A stretch of 34,805 nucleotides of DNA, taken from positions 1 to 34,805 of the forward strand of contig CALLVC010000006.1 of NCBI GenBank assembly GCA_938010785.1, in the 5' to 3' direction. Under the pieces are notes generated by a model. It saw nothing but the letters and a program-made list of their open reading frames with translations. It was not told where the DNA came from and did not search any database. A program made the position numbers and the translations under genes. Shown here piece after piece: positions 4,689 to 27,869 of this stretch; position 1 is the first letter of the stretch; every line of letters begins with the position of its first letter. This DNA comes from an uncultured Saprospiraceae bacterium (GTDB taxonomy: Bacteria > Bacteroidota > Bacteroidia > Chitinophagales > Saprospiraceae).

Positions 4689-4766
4689 TCCATAGAAATG
4701 GGGAATTTTTTAGTGAAGTTTGACATAATTATATTGAATTTTAGTGCTTTATTAATATAAATGTCT

Positions 4767-4774
4767 TACTTTTG
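4767..4774 (+). promoter_or_regulatory. -7 motif (TACTTTTG) upstream of rplS
   Basis: Matches TAnnTTTG, about 110 nt before the rplS ATG. Confidence 0.5.
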
Positions 4775-4887
4775 CACTCATTTTATGAGAAACGTATTTT
4801 TGCGTTTCCAATTCCAAAATCTAAAAATAATGTCGGCATAGCGAAAATCTTACCCGACCTCTTTTTTTTAATTAAAATGTTATAGTG

Positions 4888-8430: not shown

Positions 8431-8665
8431 TATCATAAAGAAGGAGGACATATAATTAATCTTTACCTAAAGATACCTCAAAAAACTTATAGTTTCCTTC
8501 TTCTTTCTAGAAGAAATTAACCTATAGTAAATATATTATCAAAGGAATCCAGTTAACATATCCAAAAGCTTAAAATGTTGACAATACTTATAAATCAAGG
8601 CTTTTACTTTAAAAATCCCTAACTAAACCTAATTCGGTCTTGATTTATTGAGAGAGTTTAACATA

Positions 8666-8695
8666 AAAGGGCGATGTTTTCAAACATCGCCCTTT
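8666..8695. terminator. Perfect bidirectional terminator hairpin
   Basis: AAAGGGCGATGTTT-TC-AAACATCGCCCTTT, 14/14 bp, followed by ATTTTTTG on the plus strand; about 50 nt past the stop of the minus-strand T9SS gene. Confidence 0.85.
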
Positions 8696-8745
8696 ATTTT
8701 TTGAGTACCTTTTTTGTTTATTGGTAAGCTAAACCTACCTTCTTT

Positions 8746-9911: not shown

Positions 9912-11201
9912 TCATAAAGCTATAAATTGGTTGTCAATGGTCAAACTCAATGGCAGTAACTTTTCTCCTGACCATTCGCCAAATATATTTACTGGATGCC
10001 CTCCACTTGCTGCCAAAATTTTCCATTTAGCTTTTTCATTATGAAATACTGGAATTATTTTTTTGTCTTTATCTAATAATAATAATTGGTCTTTTTCAAT
10101 AATCGGAATTATTCCTTCGAGACTACACGGAAAGGCTATTTGCCATGGATTTGCTGCTAAGTTTTGCGAATAAAAGGTAAGGTATTCTGTAAAAGTCTCA
10201 AAACCTATTATCCGCTTGACTCTTCGGTCTAAAACGAGTTTGTCTTTAACTGCAATCCGTAGTGGAGCATTCGAAGGGTAAAAAACGACTTGGCCCACAA
10301 ATACATTTCCCTTTCTATAATTAGCTGAATAGGGATGTCGCCCAAAAGCAAAATCAAGGATTAGTCCATAACGGTTCGTTTCAAATCCAAGCACCCAAGT
10401 CCTCCTAAAATTTAATTTTTCTTCTACTCCCTCTAATTGTCCAAGTACCATCCAAGTATCTTTGACCGTTTGTCCGTATTGGAATAACTCTTCTTTTTTG
10501 GTACTCACCCCCGCCACACTCAATAAATCTTGCTGAATATTTAAAGGCAATTCATCCATTTTCCTCAAACCGCGAATCAATAAATAATAGGCAGTTAATT
10601 CAGACAATACTTTTGCTGGCCAATCTTCATCCGAACCAATTAGTATGGGGATATTTTTTATCCGCTTCCCTATTGCACTTAATTGCGCATCGTGAATCCG
10701 AGCGGAAATCGAAGTCCAATAAGAGAAAGGTTGTTGTTCTAAAGCTGCTATTCCTTGACGAAGTGTATCCAATAACCAATTTTCTAATTCATCTAAACCT
10801 GACACCATCCTGTCAAGCCGTTTAGAAAAGTTCTTCTGTCGATTTTCTGCATTGGACTGCACTTGTTCTGGTGTTTGGTCTTTGGCTGGAGGTGCTCCTT
10901 TTTGTACCCAATCTGCTACCCATTCTGGCAAATCTTCTGTGCGTGTAAAAACATCCGTTTGGTCGGCCAATAATATAGATAGTGCGATGGCATGTTTGCA
11001 TGGATATTTTCTACTAGCGCAATTGCATTTAAAAGTCTGAGTCTTTTTTTGGAAGGCTACTTTATAATAGGTTAGACCTTTACTCTTACATTCCCCCCAG
11101 AAAACGGAAGCATTCCCTCCTAAGGCTCGCCAAAATTTAGTAGTGGTTAGTTTTTTAGCACGGTCAGCGGTCGCTGAATCGGGAGCAAGTTTTAAGGACA
11201 A
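9912..11201 (-). CDS. SWIM zinc-finger domain-containing protein
   Basis: 429 aa; SWIM motif CxCx(n)CxH in TFKCNCASRKYPCKHAIALSILLA. Confidence 0.85.
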   Translation of the reverse strand: MSLKLAPDSATADRAKKLTTTKFWRALGGNASVFWGECKSKGLTYYKVAFQKKTQTFKCNCASRKYPCKHAIALSILLADQTDVFTRTEDLPEWVADWVQKGAPPAKDQTPEQVQSNAENRQKNFSKRLDRMVSGLDELENWLLDTLRQGIAALEQQPFSYWTSISARIHDAQLSAIGKRIKNIPILIGSDEDWPAKVLSELTAYYLLIRGLRKMDELPLNIQQDLLSVAGVSTKKEELFQYGQTVKDTWMVLGQLEGVEEKLNFRRTWVLGFETNRYGLILDFAFGRHPYSANYRKGNVFVGQVVFYPSNAPLRIAVKDKLVLDRRVKRIIGFETFTEYLTFYSQNLAANPWQIAFPCSLEGIIPIIEKDQLLLLDKDKKIIPVFHNEKAKWKILAASGGHPVNIFGEWSGEKLLPLSLTIDNQFIAL

Positions 11202-11204
11202 TGG

Positions 11205-11296
11205 TGAGTGGTTAGTGGTGAGTTGTAAGTGGTTAATTGTTAGTGGTTAGTGGTGAGTGATTTAAAACTAACCACTAACAACTAACCACTAACAAC
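11205..11296. repeat. Degenerate GTTAGTGG-type tandem/inverted repeat between rnc and the SWIM gene
   Basis: Repeats of GTGGTTAGTGGTGAG followed by inverted ACTAACCACTAACAACTAACCACTAACAAC. Confidence 0.8.
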
Positions 11297-11298
11297 TA

Positions 11299-12045
11299 CT
11301 AAGCTACTGCTGCTGGTTGCATTCCGCTCTTTATACCTAATTGGGATAAAGCTCGTTCGGAAGCAATTTGCTCAGCACTTTTCTTGTTGAAATCATCTGC
11401 AGTTCCTACTTTTTCACCATCTACTAAAACAGCCACTTTAAAGCGGTCTCTTTTTTCGAATTTGTAGCGAGCAAGTACTTTGTAGGACACCGTATGTCCA
11501 TTTTTCTGCGACCATTCCAATAACTGACTTTTGTAATTATCATCCGTTACTTCTAATTCATGGATGTCCAAATACCGACGAAGAATCTTTTTGACAACGT
11601 ATTGCTTCGTTTTGTTGTATCCTTTTTCAACGTAAATTGCGCCGACTAAGGCTTCTACTGCATTCCCCAACATCGACCGACTTAAGCGAGTATTATTATA
11701 CTCTGCTAATAAAACATCTAATCCCATCTTATCACCAATTTGATTTAAGGATTTTCGTTTTACAATTTTAGAACGCATTTTTGTTAAGAAACCTTCATTG
11801 CTGTTTGGATATTTTTTAAATAAATATTCCGCCACAATAGTTCCTAAAACAGCATCGCCTAAATACTCTAAACGTTCGTTGTTTTGAATAGCATATCCTT
11901 TTTGGGAAGAGGTCGATTTGTGGAAAAAGGCCAATTTGTAAAGCCCCAAATTTGATGGGGTGTAGCCAATAATTCCTCTCAATCTGTGGGTAAATGCTTT
12001 GTCTTTGGAAAAATAATAATTGTAAATCTGCTTAATAAAGCTCAC
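11299..12045 (-). CDS. rnc: Ribonuclease III
   Basis: 248 aa; RNase III signature NERLEYLGDAVLGTIVAEYLF and C-terminal dsRBD (DDNYKSQLLEWSQKNGHTVSYKVL...KKSAEQIASERALSQL). Confidence 0.96.
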   Translation of the reverse strand: MSFIKQIYNYYFSKDKAFTHRLRGIIGYTPSNLGLYKLAFFHKSTSSQKGYAIQNNERLEYLGDAVLGTIVAEYLFKKYPNSNEGFLTKMRSKIVKRKSLNQIGDKMGLDVLLAEYNNTRLSRSMLGNAVEALVGAIYVEKGYNKTKQYVVKKILRRYLDIHELEVTDDNYKSQLLEWSQKNGHTVSYKVLARYKFEKRDRFKVAVLVDGEKVGTADDFNKKSAEQIASERALSQLGIKSGMQPAAVA

Positions 12046-12140
12046 ACTAAATAATGTTTTGAATAAAAAGAATCACTGTAAATGATGAGACGCATCCCAC
12101 CAAGCAAGTATGAAAACAAATTAGTATCGGCTTTAAAATA

Positions 12141-12334
12141 TAAGTACGTGGACACAATTATCTTATATTTTATGACTGGCACTTTTCAATTTTGGCACCC
12201 CATCCGCAAGCGGTTCACAAACCGTGTTTGCTCATGTTATTTTTTGTAGCAATAGCTGTACTATTACTACAAAAAATGCCTCGTCTAAATCAAAAATTAG
12301 TCAAAAATTAAATTTAATTATGTCCAAGTACTTA
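12141..12334. repeat. Inverted-repeat element 1 between fabF and rnc
   Basis: TAAGTACGTGGACACAATTA (12141-12160) vs TAATTATGTCCAAGTACTTA (12315-12334), 18/20; contains an inner hairpin ATTTTTTGTAGCAATAG-CTGTA-CTATTACTACAAAAAAT (12239-12277), 16/17. Confidence 0.85.
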
Positions 12335-12335
12335 G

Positions 12336-12453
12336 AATAATTAGATTTTAAGTGTTGATAGCAGTAACCACCAAAGTAGTTGCTAATAGTATTTGTACTA
12401 AAAGCACGCTTAATTTAATTTTTACTGGCTTCTGGTCCTAAAATCTAATTATT
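12336..12453. repeat. Inverted-repeat element 2 between fabF and rnc
   Basis: AATAATTAGATTTTA (12336-12350) and TAAAATCTAATTATT (12439-12453), 15/15; begins two bases after element 1 ends. Confidence 0.85.
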
Positions 12454-12707
12454 ATAAGGTTAAAGCCTACCCTAAATAATGCTTAATTACCCCATTAATC
12501 ATAAAATTCATTATATGATATGGAAATAAAAAAACAATATGACAAACAACTAGTCTAGTTGGATAGATACTATCCAAACCTTTGACATCAATCGTTTCTC
12601 AAAAATACTAGCAGTTTTGAATAACATGGTTTCAATTAAGAAGATATCTTAACCTTAAAGTGTGGAGCTTTTAATTCGGGGAAGTAGGCAGATTGATTAG
12701 AAAAATC

Positions 12708-12853
12708 TAGTTTAAGTATTCAAAATACCCTTTAAACACTTTGCGGTGAATGCGGCTTCACTGCAGAGTGTAAGATTCTGGGCGCTATAGTGAATTTTTT
12801 ATAAAAAAAATTAATTATAGCTACAGAAAAGTTTATTTTAAATACTTAAACCA
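12708..12853. repeat. Inverted-repeat element 3 between fabF and rnc
   Basis: TAGTTTAAGTATTCAAAATA (12708-12727) vs TATTTTAAATACTTAAACCA (12834-12853), 18/20; inner hairpin CACTTTGCGGTGAA/TTCACTGCAGAGTG (12737-12770). Confidence 0.8.
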
Positions 12854-13011
12854 TCCTACAAAAACTAAATGCTCGGTTTCAGCTACTTTATAGCTAAACT
12901 TAAATGGTTAAAATTTCAATAATTGAGGAAGCAAAACCTCCATTTATATCGGTTTTGCTAGAAATAGACCGATTTTACCATTGAAATACTCTGCAATTTA
13001 TAAAAAAATAC

Positions 13012-14253
13012 TTACAATTTCTTAAAAATTACTGAGGCATTGTGGCCTCCGAAACCAAAAGTATTACTTAACATTGCGTTTACAGGCTTTTCCTGTGCTG
13101 TATTAAAGGTAAAGTCTAATTTATTATCAATCTCAGGATCGTCAGTGAAGTGATTAATTGTAGGAGGAATGAATCCCTCTTTTATGGCAAGAATTCCAGC
13201 TACTGCCTCTACGGCACCGGCAGCGCCTAGTAAATGTCCTGTCATGGATTTAGTTGAGCTAATGTTTAGATTATAGGCATGCTCCCCAAAAACATCTTTT
13301 ATCGCCTTAGATTCCGCAACGTCTCCTAAAGGCGTCGATGTTCCATGGACATTTACGTAGTTAATTTCGTCAGGGTTCATTTTTGCGTCAGCTAATGCTA
13401 ATTTCATCACATTTTTTGCCCCTAAGCCATCTGGATGTGGCGCAGTCATGTGATGAGCATCAGCAGACATCCCACCCCCCATTACTTCTGCATATATTTT
13501 GGCGCCTCTTTTCTTGGCGTGTTCGTACTCTTCTAAAATAAGGCAAGCAGCTCCTTCTCCTAATACAAACCCATCTCGGTCTACATCAAATGGTCGAGAA
13601 GCTGTTTTGTAATCATCATTTCTTGTGGACAATGCCTTCATGGCGTTAAAACCACCAATCCCTGTTTGGGAAGTAACTGCTTCTGAACCTCCCGTTACAA
13701 TCATTTTTGAACGCCCCATTCGGATAGCATCCATTGCTGAAAGTATAGCATTTGTTGAAGAGGCACACGCAGAAACCGTCGCATAATTGGGTCCTCTAAA
13801 ACCGTATTTTATAGAAATCATTCCTGGCGCAATGTCAGGAATCATTTTTGGAATCATAAATGGATTAAAACGCGGTGTACCACTTCCAAGTGCATGAGCT
13901 ATTACATTTTCTTCTAGTACATTTAATCCTCCAATTCCAGACCCCCATATTACCCCGACACTATCCATATCCAATTTCTCCAAATCTATTCCACAGTCTT
14001 GGATTGCTTCTTCGGCAACAAAAATGGCAAATTGAGTAAAAAGGTCCATTCTTCGTGATTCCCTTCTGTGAATTAGGGTCGAAGGGTCGAAACCTTTAAC
14101 CTCACAAGCAAATTGAGTTTTAAACTCTGTTGCGTCAAAACGGGTAATCATATTCGCTCCACTCACTCCGTTCTTCAGACCTTCAGAATATTCTTTTAAG
14201 GTATTGCCAATAGGAGTCAAAGCTCCCAAACCGGTTACAACAACTCTTTTCAT
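13012..14253 (-). CDS. fabF: 3-oxoacyl-[acyl-carrier-protein] synthase II
   Basis: 413 aa; MKRVVVTGLGALTPIGN, ATVSACASSTNAI (active Cys), NVHGTSTPLGDVAE and KSMTGHLLGAAGAVEA. Confidence 0.97.
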   Translation of the reverse strand: MKRVVVTGLGALTPIGNTLKEYSEGLKNGVSGANMITRFDATEFKTQFACEVKGFDPSTLIHRRESRRMDLFTQFAIFVAEEAIQDCGIDLEKLDMDSVGVIWGSGIGGLNVLEENVIAHALGSGTPRFNPFMIPKMIPDIAPGMISIKYGFRGPNYATVSACASSTNAILSAMDAIRMGRSKMIVTGGSEAVTSQTGIGGFNAMKALSTRNDDYKTASRPFDVDRDGFVLGEGAACLILEEYEHAKKRGAKIYAEVMGGGMSADAHHMTAPHPDGLGAKNVMKLALADAKMNPDEINYVNVHGTSTPLGDVAESKAIKDVFGEHAYNLNISSTKSMTGHLLGAAGAVEAVAGILAIKEGFIPPTINHFTDDPEIDNKLDFTFNTAQEKPVNAMLSNTFGFGGHNASVIFKKL

Positions 14254-14338
14254 AAGATATTGATGATTTTATAGAGGTTCACAATCAGAAAGCGCTTGCT
14301 TTCTAATTCAGAAAATTAAATGTATTATCTTAAAGCTA

Positions 14339-14386
14339 TAAAACCGCAAAGTATCTACAATAGTATGTAAATACTTTACGGTTCTA
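14339..14386. repeat. Hairpin between acpP and fabF
   Basis: TAAAACCGCAAAGTAT opposite ATACTTTACGGTTCTA, 14/16 complement. Confidence 0.65.
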
Positions 14387-14498
14387 TGAAGAGCAATTAG
14401 ATACTATTTTTTTTGCTTGATTGTATAAAACCTTTACAAGCCTAATTGTTCAATTGCTCCCAATTTTAAGATGTCTTTTGCTGTCTAATCTCTACTGA

Positions 14499-16707: not shown

Positions 16708-16762
16708 GAAATTTAAAATCGAAAATTATAAATGTAAAATCTAAAAGTAGGGCAAAGCACCT

Positions 16763-16787
16763 AGTTCAAGTTCAAGTTCAAGTTCAA
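16763..16787. repeat. AGTTCA tandem repeat
   Basis: AGTTCAAGTTCAAGTTCAAGTTCAA, four consecutive copies after pyk. Confidence 0.9.
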
Positions 16788-16831
16788 ACTTTGAGCTTAA
16801 TCAAATACTTTTTAGACTTTATAATTTATAC

Positions 16832-16869
16832 AAAAACCCGAATGGATATAACTTTCCATTCGGGTTTTT
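16832..16869 (+). terminator. Terminator after pyk (likely bidirectional, convergent genes)
   Basis: AAAAACCCGAATGGA-TATAACTT-TCCATTCGGGTTTTT, 15/15 bp. Confidence 0.88.
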
Positions 16870-16919
16870 CTATTCCAACTTTTAAATGTAGAATTTTACA
16901 TTTGAAATTTTACATTTCT

Positions 16920-19790
16920 TTATTCCCCCGCCATATTCACCTCCATAGCCTTCGTTCGAGAATCATTAATCGCATCATAGACTACCTGATGGATTCGTTG
17001 TCGAAGGCGCATTTTTTTCATCGTGTCATTTCTTGGATTTGGATAAACCCTATTGGATAAGAAGATGTAAATCAACTCCTCTTCTGGGTCTACCCATACA
17101 CAAGTTCCAGAAAAGCCAGAATGACCATACGTTTTATGAGAAGCGGATTTTGAAGCAGTATAATTATAACGAGCTTTGTCAAATCCTAAACCTCGATGAT
17201 TGCCATGCCTAGAGGAAGTGAAATAATCTATTGTCTCTTTGGATAAATAATGTTTACCGCCATATTCACCACCTTGCAACAACATCTGAAATAGAACCGC
17301 CAAATCAGCAGCATTCGAAAACAAGCCTGCATTCCCTCCTACTCCACCTAAAATGGCCGCAGATTCGTCATGTACATACCCTCTTACCAAAGATTTTCTC
17401 CAAAAATCATCTTGTTGAGTAGGAGCTATTACATCAGGTGACAATCTTTCTAATGGCTTATAAGTTAAATTTCTTAAACCTAGTGGCTCGTAAAAATGTC
17501 GCTTCAAATAATCATCTAAATCATAGCCTATTTTCTGTTCTAGCAATTGGTGGATTATATAAAAATTTACATCACTGTATAGATATTTTCTACTTCTATA
17601 TTTCCTCGGCAACATACTCACCTTTTCATAAAGAGAGTCAAGATGGGTCGGGTCTAAATAAAATTCTTCTGCTATTTTTAAAGAATATTTATCCGTCTGA
17701 AACCTACAAAAATAGGGGGTACAATCTTTAGGGTATCCTCGATTATTTAAATAAACCGAAATAGGCATATTCCTTTGTAAGCCTGATTTATGAATAAATA
17801 AATTTTTAAGTAATATATTTTTAATCGTTGATGAAGAAGACAATTCCATTTGTCCTTTTAAAGGAGCTTCTAAATTTATTTCCTCTTCCTCATATAAACG
17901 CATGGCTGCTAAGGTTGTCGCTGCCGTCTTGGTGATAGAAGCCACATCATATAAATCAGATTGCTCCACCCTTTGTACTTTATCATAAGTGTGATGCCCA
18001 AAGGTTTTAGAATAAATGATTTTTCCTTGTTTGGCAACTAATACTTGACCACCAGGGGTAGCCCCACTTCGTATTGCAGACGCAAAAAGACGGTCAATGC
18101 CTTCTAATTTATCAGAAGATATGCCTACTTCCTCAGGCGTTGTATGTTTTAGTCTTAAAATTGGGGTAAGGCTCCTTTTTCCTTTTGGTAACCAACTAGC
18201 CACTTCCATCGGTAAGGCTCCTCGTGCTTCTATAGCACCAAAGAGCAATTGGGGAACAGCCACCTCCGTAATCGCATTGCGCTCAAATACCTGAATGGAA
18301 GTAATAGTAGAATCAATTAAACTTAAATTATAAGGATTCCCATAATTGACAATAATCACTTTACTGTCCTCACTTATTTTATGAATCGAACTTATAAACT
18401 CTTTATGTTTTATTCTATCTAGATTTACATCATCTAATGTTATCAGGTATGCACCACTACGAATTGGATTAAAAGCAAGCCCATTTATTTTTCCATCCTT
18501 TTGGGGTCGATACAAATGACTGCTGCAATTGGCATAATCGAAAAAACTATTCTGAAACTTTCGAAGCTTATTTGGTCCTACATGTACAACTTTAAATTGT
18601 TCAGCATAAGTCTTTTTAAATGGTAAGAGACTGTCTCTATTATTTGTTAAAATGATAGAATGCTCAAACAATTCTTTTGTGTATAATTCTTCAACTTGAT
18701 TATTCCTAATGACATTTCTAGCGTAACTGACCGGTTTGCTGTAGACCTTATCATTTAAGCCTATCCATTTTTTAGCCATCAATAACTGATGCACCTTTTC
18801 ATCAATTATGGACTCACTAATCGTCCCTTCTGCTATTAACGCTTTTAATTTTTCGAAATTGACCGCCAATTCCTTTTCTGGAACCACAAAAGCCGTGGCT
18901 CCTGCATAGAGTAACATCTTCAGAGATACTTCTTCTGTAATTTGTCCAAATATCAATCCATCAAATTGAAGGTGTTTTTTCAAAAAGGTCCTATAAAATT
19001 CAGGGAGCCGATGCGTAATGGAATCTCCCTCGAAAATTTTATCACTTAGCATTACTCCTGACAATCCACCTATTACTAAGGATTTGTATTTATTCAAATA
19101 CCCTTGTTTAATTAAAGTAGAATCAGGAATAGTATCTACATAAAAATCAAAAGCGTTGGCTATGGCTAAGATTTTTTTGTCTTGTAGTCGTTCTACTCTA
19201 TCCGCAGCCCGACTCATTAACGTTACTGATTCCTCACATTGTAATTGAGGAAAATAATTGGTCTTGTTATCGGCTAAGGAATGAATACTTGGAGATAAAC
19301 TTAAATTAATACCTTCTTTCTTAAAATCAGTTACTAACTTCTTTTCTAAAGAACGACTCAAAAATTCCCGATTCAAAGCACTTATGGTTGTACTTTCTGG
19401 GTAATTTGGTAAATCAGATAATTGATTGTTAAAAGAAGTTTGTTCCGCTGATGCTTCGAATAATGGAATGGCCGTAACAGAACGCAATTCGGAAAGCGTC
19501 TCTTGATAGGTACTTTTAGAAATACCACTCATTAGAATACCTCCTGGTTGAAATTCTTCAGCTATTCTAACAGTCGTACTCGGTGTATTAGTGGCTGTAG
19601 AAGTTACTATGAAAAGTTGTCCAATTTTCTCTTTTATTGATAAATGACTTAGCGTTGTATCTGCCCAGGTCTTATCTTCCTCACTGTAGACAGGGGGGTA
19701 GGTAGGCGCTTGATAGGATATGTGCCCACAAGAAATAAAAATGGATATTATCAAAAATCCACTAATAGATTTTGGATGTTTATTTTTCAT
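16920..19790 (-). CDS. Fusion protein: GH3-like N-terminal region (apparently degenerate) plus beta-lactamase-family serine hydrolase
   Basis: 956 aa; lipoprotein-like N-terminus (LIISIFISCGH), GH3-like start (LSIKEKIGQLFIVTS), C-terminal serine hydrolase with SxxK (DVASITKTAATTLAAMRLYEE) and HxG (THKTYGHSGFSGT in context SHKTYGHSGFSGTCVWVDP). Confidence 0.87.
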   Translation of the reverse strand: MKNKHPKSISGFLIISIFISCGHISYQAPTYPPVYSEEDKTWADTTLSHLSIKEKIGQLFIVTSTATNTPSTTVRIAEEFQPGGILMSGISKSTYQETLSELRSVTAIPLFEASAEQTSFNNQLSDLPNYPESTTISALNREFLSRSLEKKLVTDFKKEGINLSLSPSIHSLADNKTNYFPQLQCEESVTLMSRAADRVERLQDKKILAIANAFDFYVDTIPDSTLIKQGYLNKYKSLVIGGLSGVMLSDKIFEGDSITHRLPEFYRTFLKKHLQFDGLIFGQITEEVSLKMLLYAGATAFVVPEKELAVNFEKLKALIAEGTISESIIDEKVHQLLMAKKWIGLNDKVYSKPVSYARNVIRNNQVEELYTKELFEHSIILTNNRDSLLPFKKTYAEQFKVVHVGPNKLRKFQNSFFDYANCSSHLYRPQKDGKINGLAFNPIRSGAYLITLDDVNLDRIKHKEFISSIHKISEDSKVIIVNYGNPYNLSLIDSTITSIQVFERNAITEVAVPQLLFGAIEARGALPMEVASWLPKGKRSLTPILRLKHTTPEEVGISSDKLEGIDRLFASAIRSGATPGGQVLVAKQGKIIYSKTFGHHTYDKVQRVEQSDLYDVASITKTAATTLAAMRLYEEEEINLEAPLKGQMELSSSSTIKNILLKNLFIHKSGLQRNMPISVYLNNRGYPKDCTPYFCRFQTDKYSLKIAEEFYLDPTHLDSLYEKVSMLPRKYRSRKYLYSDVNFYIIHQLLEQKIGYDLDDYLKRHFYEPLGLRNLTYKPLERLSPDVIAPTQQDDFWRKSLVRGYVHDESAAILGGVGGNAGLFSNAADLAVLFQMLLQGGEYGGKHYLSKETIDYFTSSRHGNHRGLGFDKARYNYTASKSASHKTYGHSGFSGTCVWVDPEEELIYIFLSNRVYPNPRNDTMKKMRLRQRIHQVVYDAINDSRTKAMEVNMAGE

Positions 19791-27681: not shown

Positions 27682-27749
27682 GGTGGGCAGGTGGAAAGGT
27701 GGAAGGGTTAGGAGGCGGAAAGGCGGATAGGCTGAGGGGCGGAAAGGCA
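27681..27749. repeat. Purine-rich degenerate GGCGGAAAGG repeat
   Basis: GGTGGGCAGGTGGAAAGGTGGAAGGGTTAGGAGGCGGAAAGGCGGATAGGCTGAGGGGCGGAAAGGC; inverse-oriented related tract at about 27832-27869, and a similar GGCTGAAAGG tract at about 34137-34163. Confidence 0.75.
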
Positions 27750-27869
27750 AGCGAGCAAAATATAGATTATTGAACAGTCTCAAACTACTCCAAAACGTTC
27801 TTCAAATTCTCTTACAAGATTTCGTTAAATTGCCCCTCAGCCCTTCTGCCTTTCCGCCTCTCTGCCTTC

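Follow-up and report, generated by a model that had tools for sequence, protein, structure and literature searches.

The 966-nt spacer at positions 12046-13011, which separates the minus-strand gene fabF from the minus-strand gene rnc in an uncultured Saprospiraceae bacterium, is a composite of hairpin sequences of different origin and not a single RNase III leader. The explanation that best accounts jointly for our data, to which we assign a probability of roughly 0.8, is that one of these sequences (element 1) is an IS630-type MITE and another (element 3) a structured RNA 3' of fabF. According to this explanation, a long co-directional intergenic region in a Saprospiraceae genus would have collected hairpins from different sources. 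The stretch of DNA analysed, in the following called the window, comprises 34,805 nucleotides and represents contig C6 of a 617-contig, 6.16-Mb assembly. Its relevant features are as follows:

11299-12045, minus strand: rnc, encoding RNase III, 248 aa (Pfam Ribonucleas_3_3, 4.9e-27; dsrm, 1.8e-13)
12141-12142: left-hand TA of the duplicated target (from the sequence; the TA-only empty site is known from the smpB-side family member)
12143-12332: element 1, 190 bp, assigned to the MITEs, ends AGTACGTGGACA / TGTCCAAGTACT (from genome copies, TIR and TA matches, the family empty site and likeness to IS630-type TIRs)
12194-12236, plus strand: REP-like palindromic module GGCACCCCATCCGCAAGCGGTTCACAAACCGTGTTTGCTCATG, two hairpins, 43 nt (from core-pattern counts, covariation and absence from some element 1 copies)
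12239-12277: inner hairpin of element 1, 17-nt arms, 94% (from an inverted-repeat search)
12333-12334: right-hand TA of the duplicated target (from the sequence)
12331-12458: element 2, imperfect inverted repeat, 48 nt (from an inverted-repeat search; single copy; partly present in sister genome G263)
12684-12859, minus strand: element 3, structured sequence, candidate 3'UTR RNA or sRNA (from synteny, consensus fold, double-sided changes and single copy)
12908-12987: element 4, short complementary words forming a weak set (from the sequence)
13012-14253, minus strand: fabF, encoding beta-ketoacyl-ACP synthase, 413 aa (Pfam ketoacyl-synt, 5.4e-54)

An initial annotation, made by reading the sequence, had described this spacer as non-coding, as lying between two minus-strand genes and as filled with stacked inverted repeats. 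All of this was borne out: the spacer contains no ORF of at least 80 aa, the Pfam profiles identify both flanking genes on the minus strand, and the repeats were recovered by an inverted-repeat search with small corrections of their coordinates. The closest relatives of the rnc gene product are the RNase III proteins of uncultured Saprospiraceae. Folding of the minus-strand spacer RNA, as suggested in the annotation, yielded -264.7 kcal/mol as compared to -193.6 +/- 7.7 kcal/mol for 20 shuffled sequences (z -9.3). When the spacer is assessed in 150-nt windows, however, its structure is about the same as that of the other intergenic DNA of the window, with mean z values of -2.05 (minus strand) and -1.63 (plus strand) versus -1.69 and -1.48, respectively, and structures stronger than those of the spacer occur at 8551, 11176, 14326 and 16726. 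Further stretches with inverted repeats or strong structure are located at 8551-8700, 14251-14475, 16726-16950 and 27712-27860. Immediately 3' of rnc, at 11200-11298, tandem GTGGTTAGTGGTGAGT units are accompanied by inverted copies and both strands fold strongly (z about -9); the matching place in a congener (L011) shows a strong hairpin-like match at 4746-4823. Scans of the spacer against Rfam, by gathering score and by E-value, returned no credible family.

Judged by its sequence, element 1 is a non-autonomous MITE of the IS630 (Tc1/mariner) type and represents a putative new family of a known kind. The initial annotation placed this inverted repeat at 12141-12334; the repeat is real, while the element proper spans 12143-12332 with one TA outside each end (TAAGTACGTGGACA / TGTCCAAGTACTTA including the flanks, at 12141 and 12334). 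Its terminal repeats read AGTAC[G/T]TGGACA, the two ends agree at 16 of the first 18 bases, and there is no ORF inside. With its TIRs, its non-coding interior and a length of 190 bp, it falls within the range of the IS630/RUP-type MITEs (about 70-300 bp). As is typical of MITEs, it is dispersed: several copies with 73-93% identity are present in other contigs of the same genome, which also contains 17 matches to the exact TIR pattern TAAGTASGTGGACA, as opposed to none for the control read backwards. This pattern, together with the TA, is also matched in five of eight congeners, and all eight have matches to the element 1 region. Nearly all ends found with the TIR pattern adjoin a TA; in element 1 copies C167 and C592, a clean TA is missing at one side. 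In another genus, an element of genome G207 (locus L207) has the ends TAAGTACGTGGACA and carries the nested module, indicating that the combination of ends and module is not limited to the genus of the window.

The duplication of the TA target is documented by an exact empty site, which belongs to another member of the family, located beside smpB (a gene identified from its reading frame and not by profile). In the window's own genome (G000), this member is arranged as TA-[element]-TA, whereas in the sister genome G263 both flanks are joined with a single TA (...GATTA-TA-GATTCG) and positions 1-478 and 641-1400 of the query are contiguous. At the fabF-rnc locus itself no single-TA empty site was found: in the three next-closest relatives the sequence around the site has diverged too far, and the spacer of G263 is similar up to the site of element 1 and then continues with a different sequence that has inverted ends of its own (L110 about 2040-2310, ends TTAAGTAATGCGG / CCGTATTACTTAA). 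The presence of other inverted-repeat DNA at this position suggests that it may have been targeted more than once. Insertion of element 1, the largest of the hairpins, between fabF and rnc, apparently a recent event, is thus supported by its family, its TA flanks and its absence from G263, and not by a clean empty site.

A likely transposon relative of element 1 is present in the sister genome. There, contig G263:C186 carries a DDE_3 transposase gene and an upstream HTH frame between two inverted copies of TAAGTAATTGGACA, which lie 1.1 kb apart and connect the ends of element 1 to an IS630-type transposon; they differ from those of element 1 at two of about 12-14 bases. The assembly that contains the window, fragmented and 89% complete, yielded no transposon whose ends match, and inspection by eye recognised no transposase ORFs beside solo TIR matches in this genome. 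We propose that an IS630-type transposase recognising AGTAnnTGGACA ends, possibly of the type encoded in G263, placed element 1 into a TA and thereby duplicated it.

The tip of element 1 is occupied by the REP-like module. Its core pattern is matched 53 times in the own genome, as compared to none for the reversed control; among the congeners there are 21 matches in G219, six in G263, two each in G298 and G299 and none in four others. A search of the wider family with a slightly stricter pattern revealed 23 matches in G186, a genome of another genus. The module is found in several unrelated carriers with different ends, and it is absent at the same point from element 1 copies C592 and C517 and from one copy of a second carrier; the inner hairpin at 12239-12277, in turn, recurs in the second carrier without the ends of element 1. 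In 40 copies of the module, 97.7% of cells pair. In its second hairpin, both sides have changed in 38 cells with zero G-U pairs, and the sequences fall into discrete types (AAAC/GTTT, CCGT/ACGG and GAG/CTC). Discrete types that differ on both sides without G-U intermediates suggest that exchange or selection acted on the DNA. The module might therefore move or be exchanged as a unit of its own, inserting into the tips of other hairpin elements or substituting for them, an idea to which we give rather little credence. The notion that the module invariably caps a larger palindrome does not hold, as only 22 of 51 pattern matches, some of which arise by chance, pass a test of flank complementarity.

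With its dispersal and the covariation of its stems, the module resembles the GTAG- and CGTC-tagged REPs, which are likewise short, dispersed and palindromic, show complementary changes in their stems and in some cases sit inside longer palindromes (PMC3733652). As REPs inside palindromes are already known, the module should be regarded as varying an established theme, unless it proves to move on its own. Unlike these REPs, it consists of two consecutive hairpins and has no constant unpaired GTAG or CGTC end tag across its carriers, TCGTCT or TTGTCT following in some of them only. Nor was a tyrosine transposase flanked by it found: none of the three Y1_Tnp genes of the own genome has the module beside it, and a Y1 transposase was hence rejected as its mover. 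One Y1 tyrosine transposase gene of this genome (L247 1225-2095) is bracketed by other inverted short repeats (GGAGCATCGCTCC... and AAAGGGCATAGCCCT..., with GTCTGTA) in a REPtron-like arrangement.

Elements 2 and 4 each occur once in their own genome and can be traced, in part, to G263 alone. The arms of element 2 (12331-12378/12411-12458, 71%) are the longest in the whole window; G263 retains one arm and the loop (the left arm in minus-strand order) and differs in the other arm. For element 4, the short complementary words described in the initial annotation as a weaker fourth set at about 12908-12987 are present as stated. In G263, its ATCGGT/ACCGAT pair is replaced by ATCAGT/ACTGAT, a double change that keeps the pairing, and its stem GCAAAACC/GGTTTTGC is broken.

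Element 3 is the part of the spacer that shows evidence of selection and the only one that suggests a function as RNA. It is located about 150 nt downstream of fabF and about 640 nt upstream of rnc, occurs once in its own genome and is found at the same place in five genomes of the genus (the window, G263, G219, G300 and G298). The initial annotation had placed it at 12708-12853, and the inverted-repeat search recovered its arms (12710-12733/12828-12851, 24 nt, 88%); its extent is larger, 176 nt including inner hairpins and a GUAGG/CCUAC closing stem. The consensus structure reaches -47.9 kcal/mol on the minus strand versus -36.8 kcal/mol on the plus strand (z -11.4 and -8.8, respectively, relative to shuffled columns), three pairs have changed on both sides, and AATCAATCTGCCTAC, outside the stem, is invariant in the five genomes. 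On the minus strand, G-U pairs fill 26 cells versus seven for A-C mismatches, a count biased towards G-U because the structure itself was predicted from RNA energies for this strand. The earlier claim that G-U pairs favour the minus-strand RNA consequently applies to element 3 across the congeners, three of which strongly favour the minus strand in folding, whereas the window and G263 taken alone show a slight preference for the plus strand. This preference supports an RNA role for element 3 only. Transcription of the spacer being presumed, element 3 would most likely be made as the 3'UTR of fabF, or as a processed or independent sRNA.

It is possible, if somewhat doubtful, that element 3 has no regulatory role and simply terminates fabF transcription or stabilises the mRNA as a 3' hairpin. 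It directly follows fabF, its long stem is succeeded by AUUUUUC in the window, and the outer stem survives as a short hairpin at the same place in two further loci (L012 and L014), the latter of which lacks the inner 107 positions. However, conservation extends beyond the stem to AATCAATCTGCCTAC, 176 nt with inner hairpins exceed what a terminator needs, and a scan for terminator patterns did not call element 3.

That every inverted repeat of the spacer derives from successive insertions of transposable elements, element 3 merely being an older one, is improbable. Repeats of this kind are abundant in the genome, and element 3 itself is a nested hairpin whose interior has been lost in L014. However, it is single copy and its pairing is largely retained over five genomes. 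Moreover, a covariance model applied to 150 family genomes, a sample that includes congener G063 and from which the four congeners keeping element 3 appear to be absent, and to 53 rnc loci detected only the own genome, not the other 149, and the outer stem in L014. Element 3 has no Rfam match above the gathering score. DNA matches in other genera (L112-L115) are short AT-rich or coding sequences away from fabF and were treated as chance.

The initial annotation had also raised the idea of an RNase III self-processing or autoregulation region. In E. coli, RNase III controls its own synthesis through a specific hairpin in the leader of its mRNA; the spacer likewise places stem-loops upstream of rnc and folds strongly as a whole. 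Correspondingly, the fabF-rnc (or rnc) mRNA would carry stems that are cut by RNase III, lowering rnc expression. In contrast to the E. coli leader, these stems either belong to a mobile element or lie at a distance from rnc, and they are not conserved. In 76 Saprospiraceae relatives in which both genes were measured, the fabF-rnc distance ranges from -4 to 950 nt, and in many of them the junction is 20-30 nt or overlapping; relatives with short spacers and normal rnc regulation had been named beforehand as speaking against autoregulation, and our data bear this out for the length of the spacer. No hairpin is conserved upstream of rnc in the relatives, and a search for the Bacteroidota promoter motif in this position gave no consistent site. 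Saprospiraceae fabF-rnc spacers of at least 120 nt tend to carry a little more structure than the remaining co-directional gaps (mean z -2.10 versus -1.55, p 0.02), a weak difference as the control set misses small genes. RNase III has been proposed to target MITE-like RNA elsewhere, namely the NEMIS/Correia elements of Neisseria within mRNAs (PMC2229807); the spacer repeats would be comparable to these as MITE-like inverted repeats located between genes. With element 1 mobile and replaced in the nearest sister genome, elements 2 and 4 not conserved beyond it, element 3 remote from rnc and undetected in other genera, and a spacer whose structure does not clearly exceed that of the remaining intergenic DNA in the window, autoregulation is very improbable. 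The alternative mentioned in the same annotation, that repeats accumulated and happen to sit there, fits most of the spacer, given that element 1 is dispersed and mobile.

Among known systems, element 1 comes closest to RUP (repeat unit of pneumococcus), a 107-bp MITE linked to IS630-Spn1 (PMC2229807). Both are short and non-coding, have IS630-like TIRs, insert at TA and occur in many intergenic copies. Element 1 differs in sequence, host and length (190 bp versus 107 bp), in its nested palindromic module, and in that the matching transposon comes from a sister genome and not from the same assembly. Our literature searches turned up no publication describing these repeats in Saprospiraceae.

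Taken together, an apparently regulatory stack of hairpins in front of the gene for RNase III turns out to be mostly mobile-element sequence. What is new here is a probable IS630-type MITE family in this Saprospiraceae genus, for which we describe an exact empty site as well as a transposon that is likely to be related. If the module really inserts at hairpin tips, this would be relevant to the question of how REP-like palindromes can disperse when they have no transposase of their own. Element 3 remains as the one conserved structured sequence after fabF and is worth an expression test.
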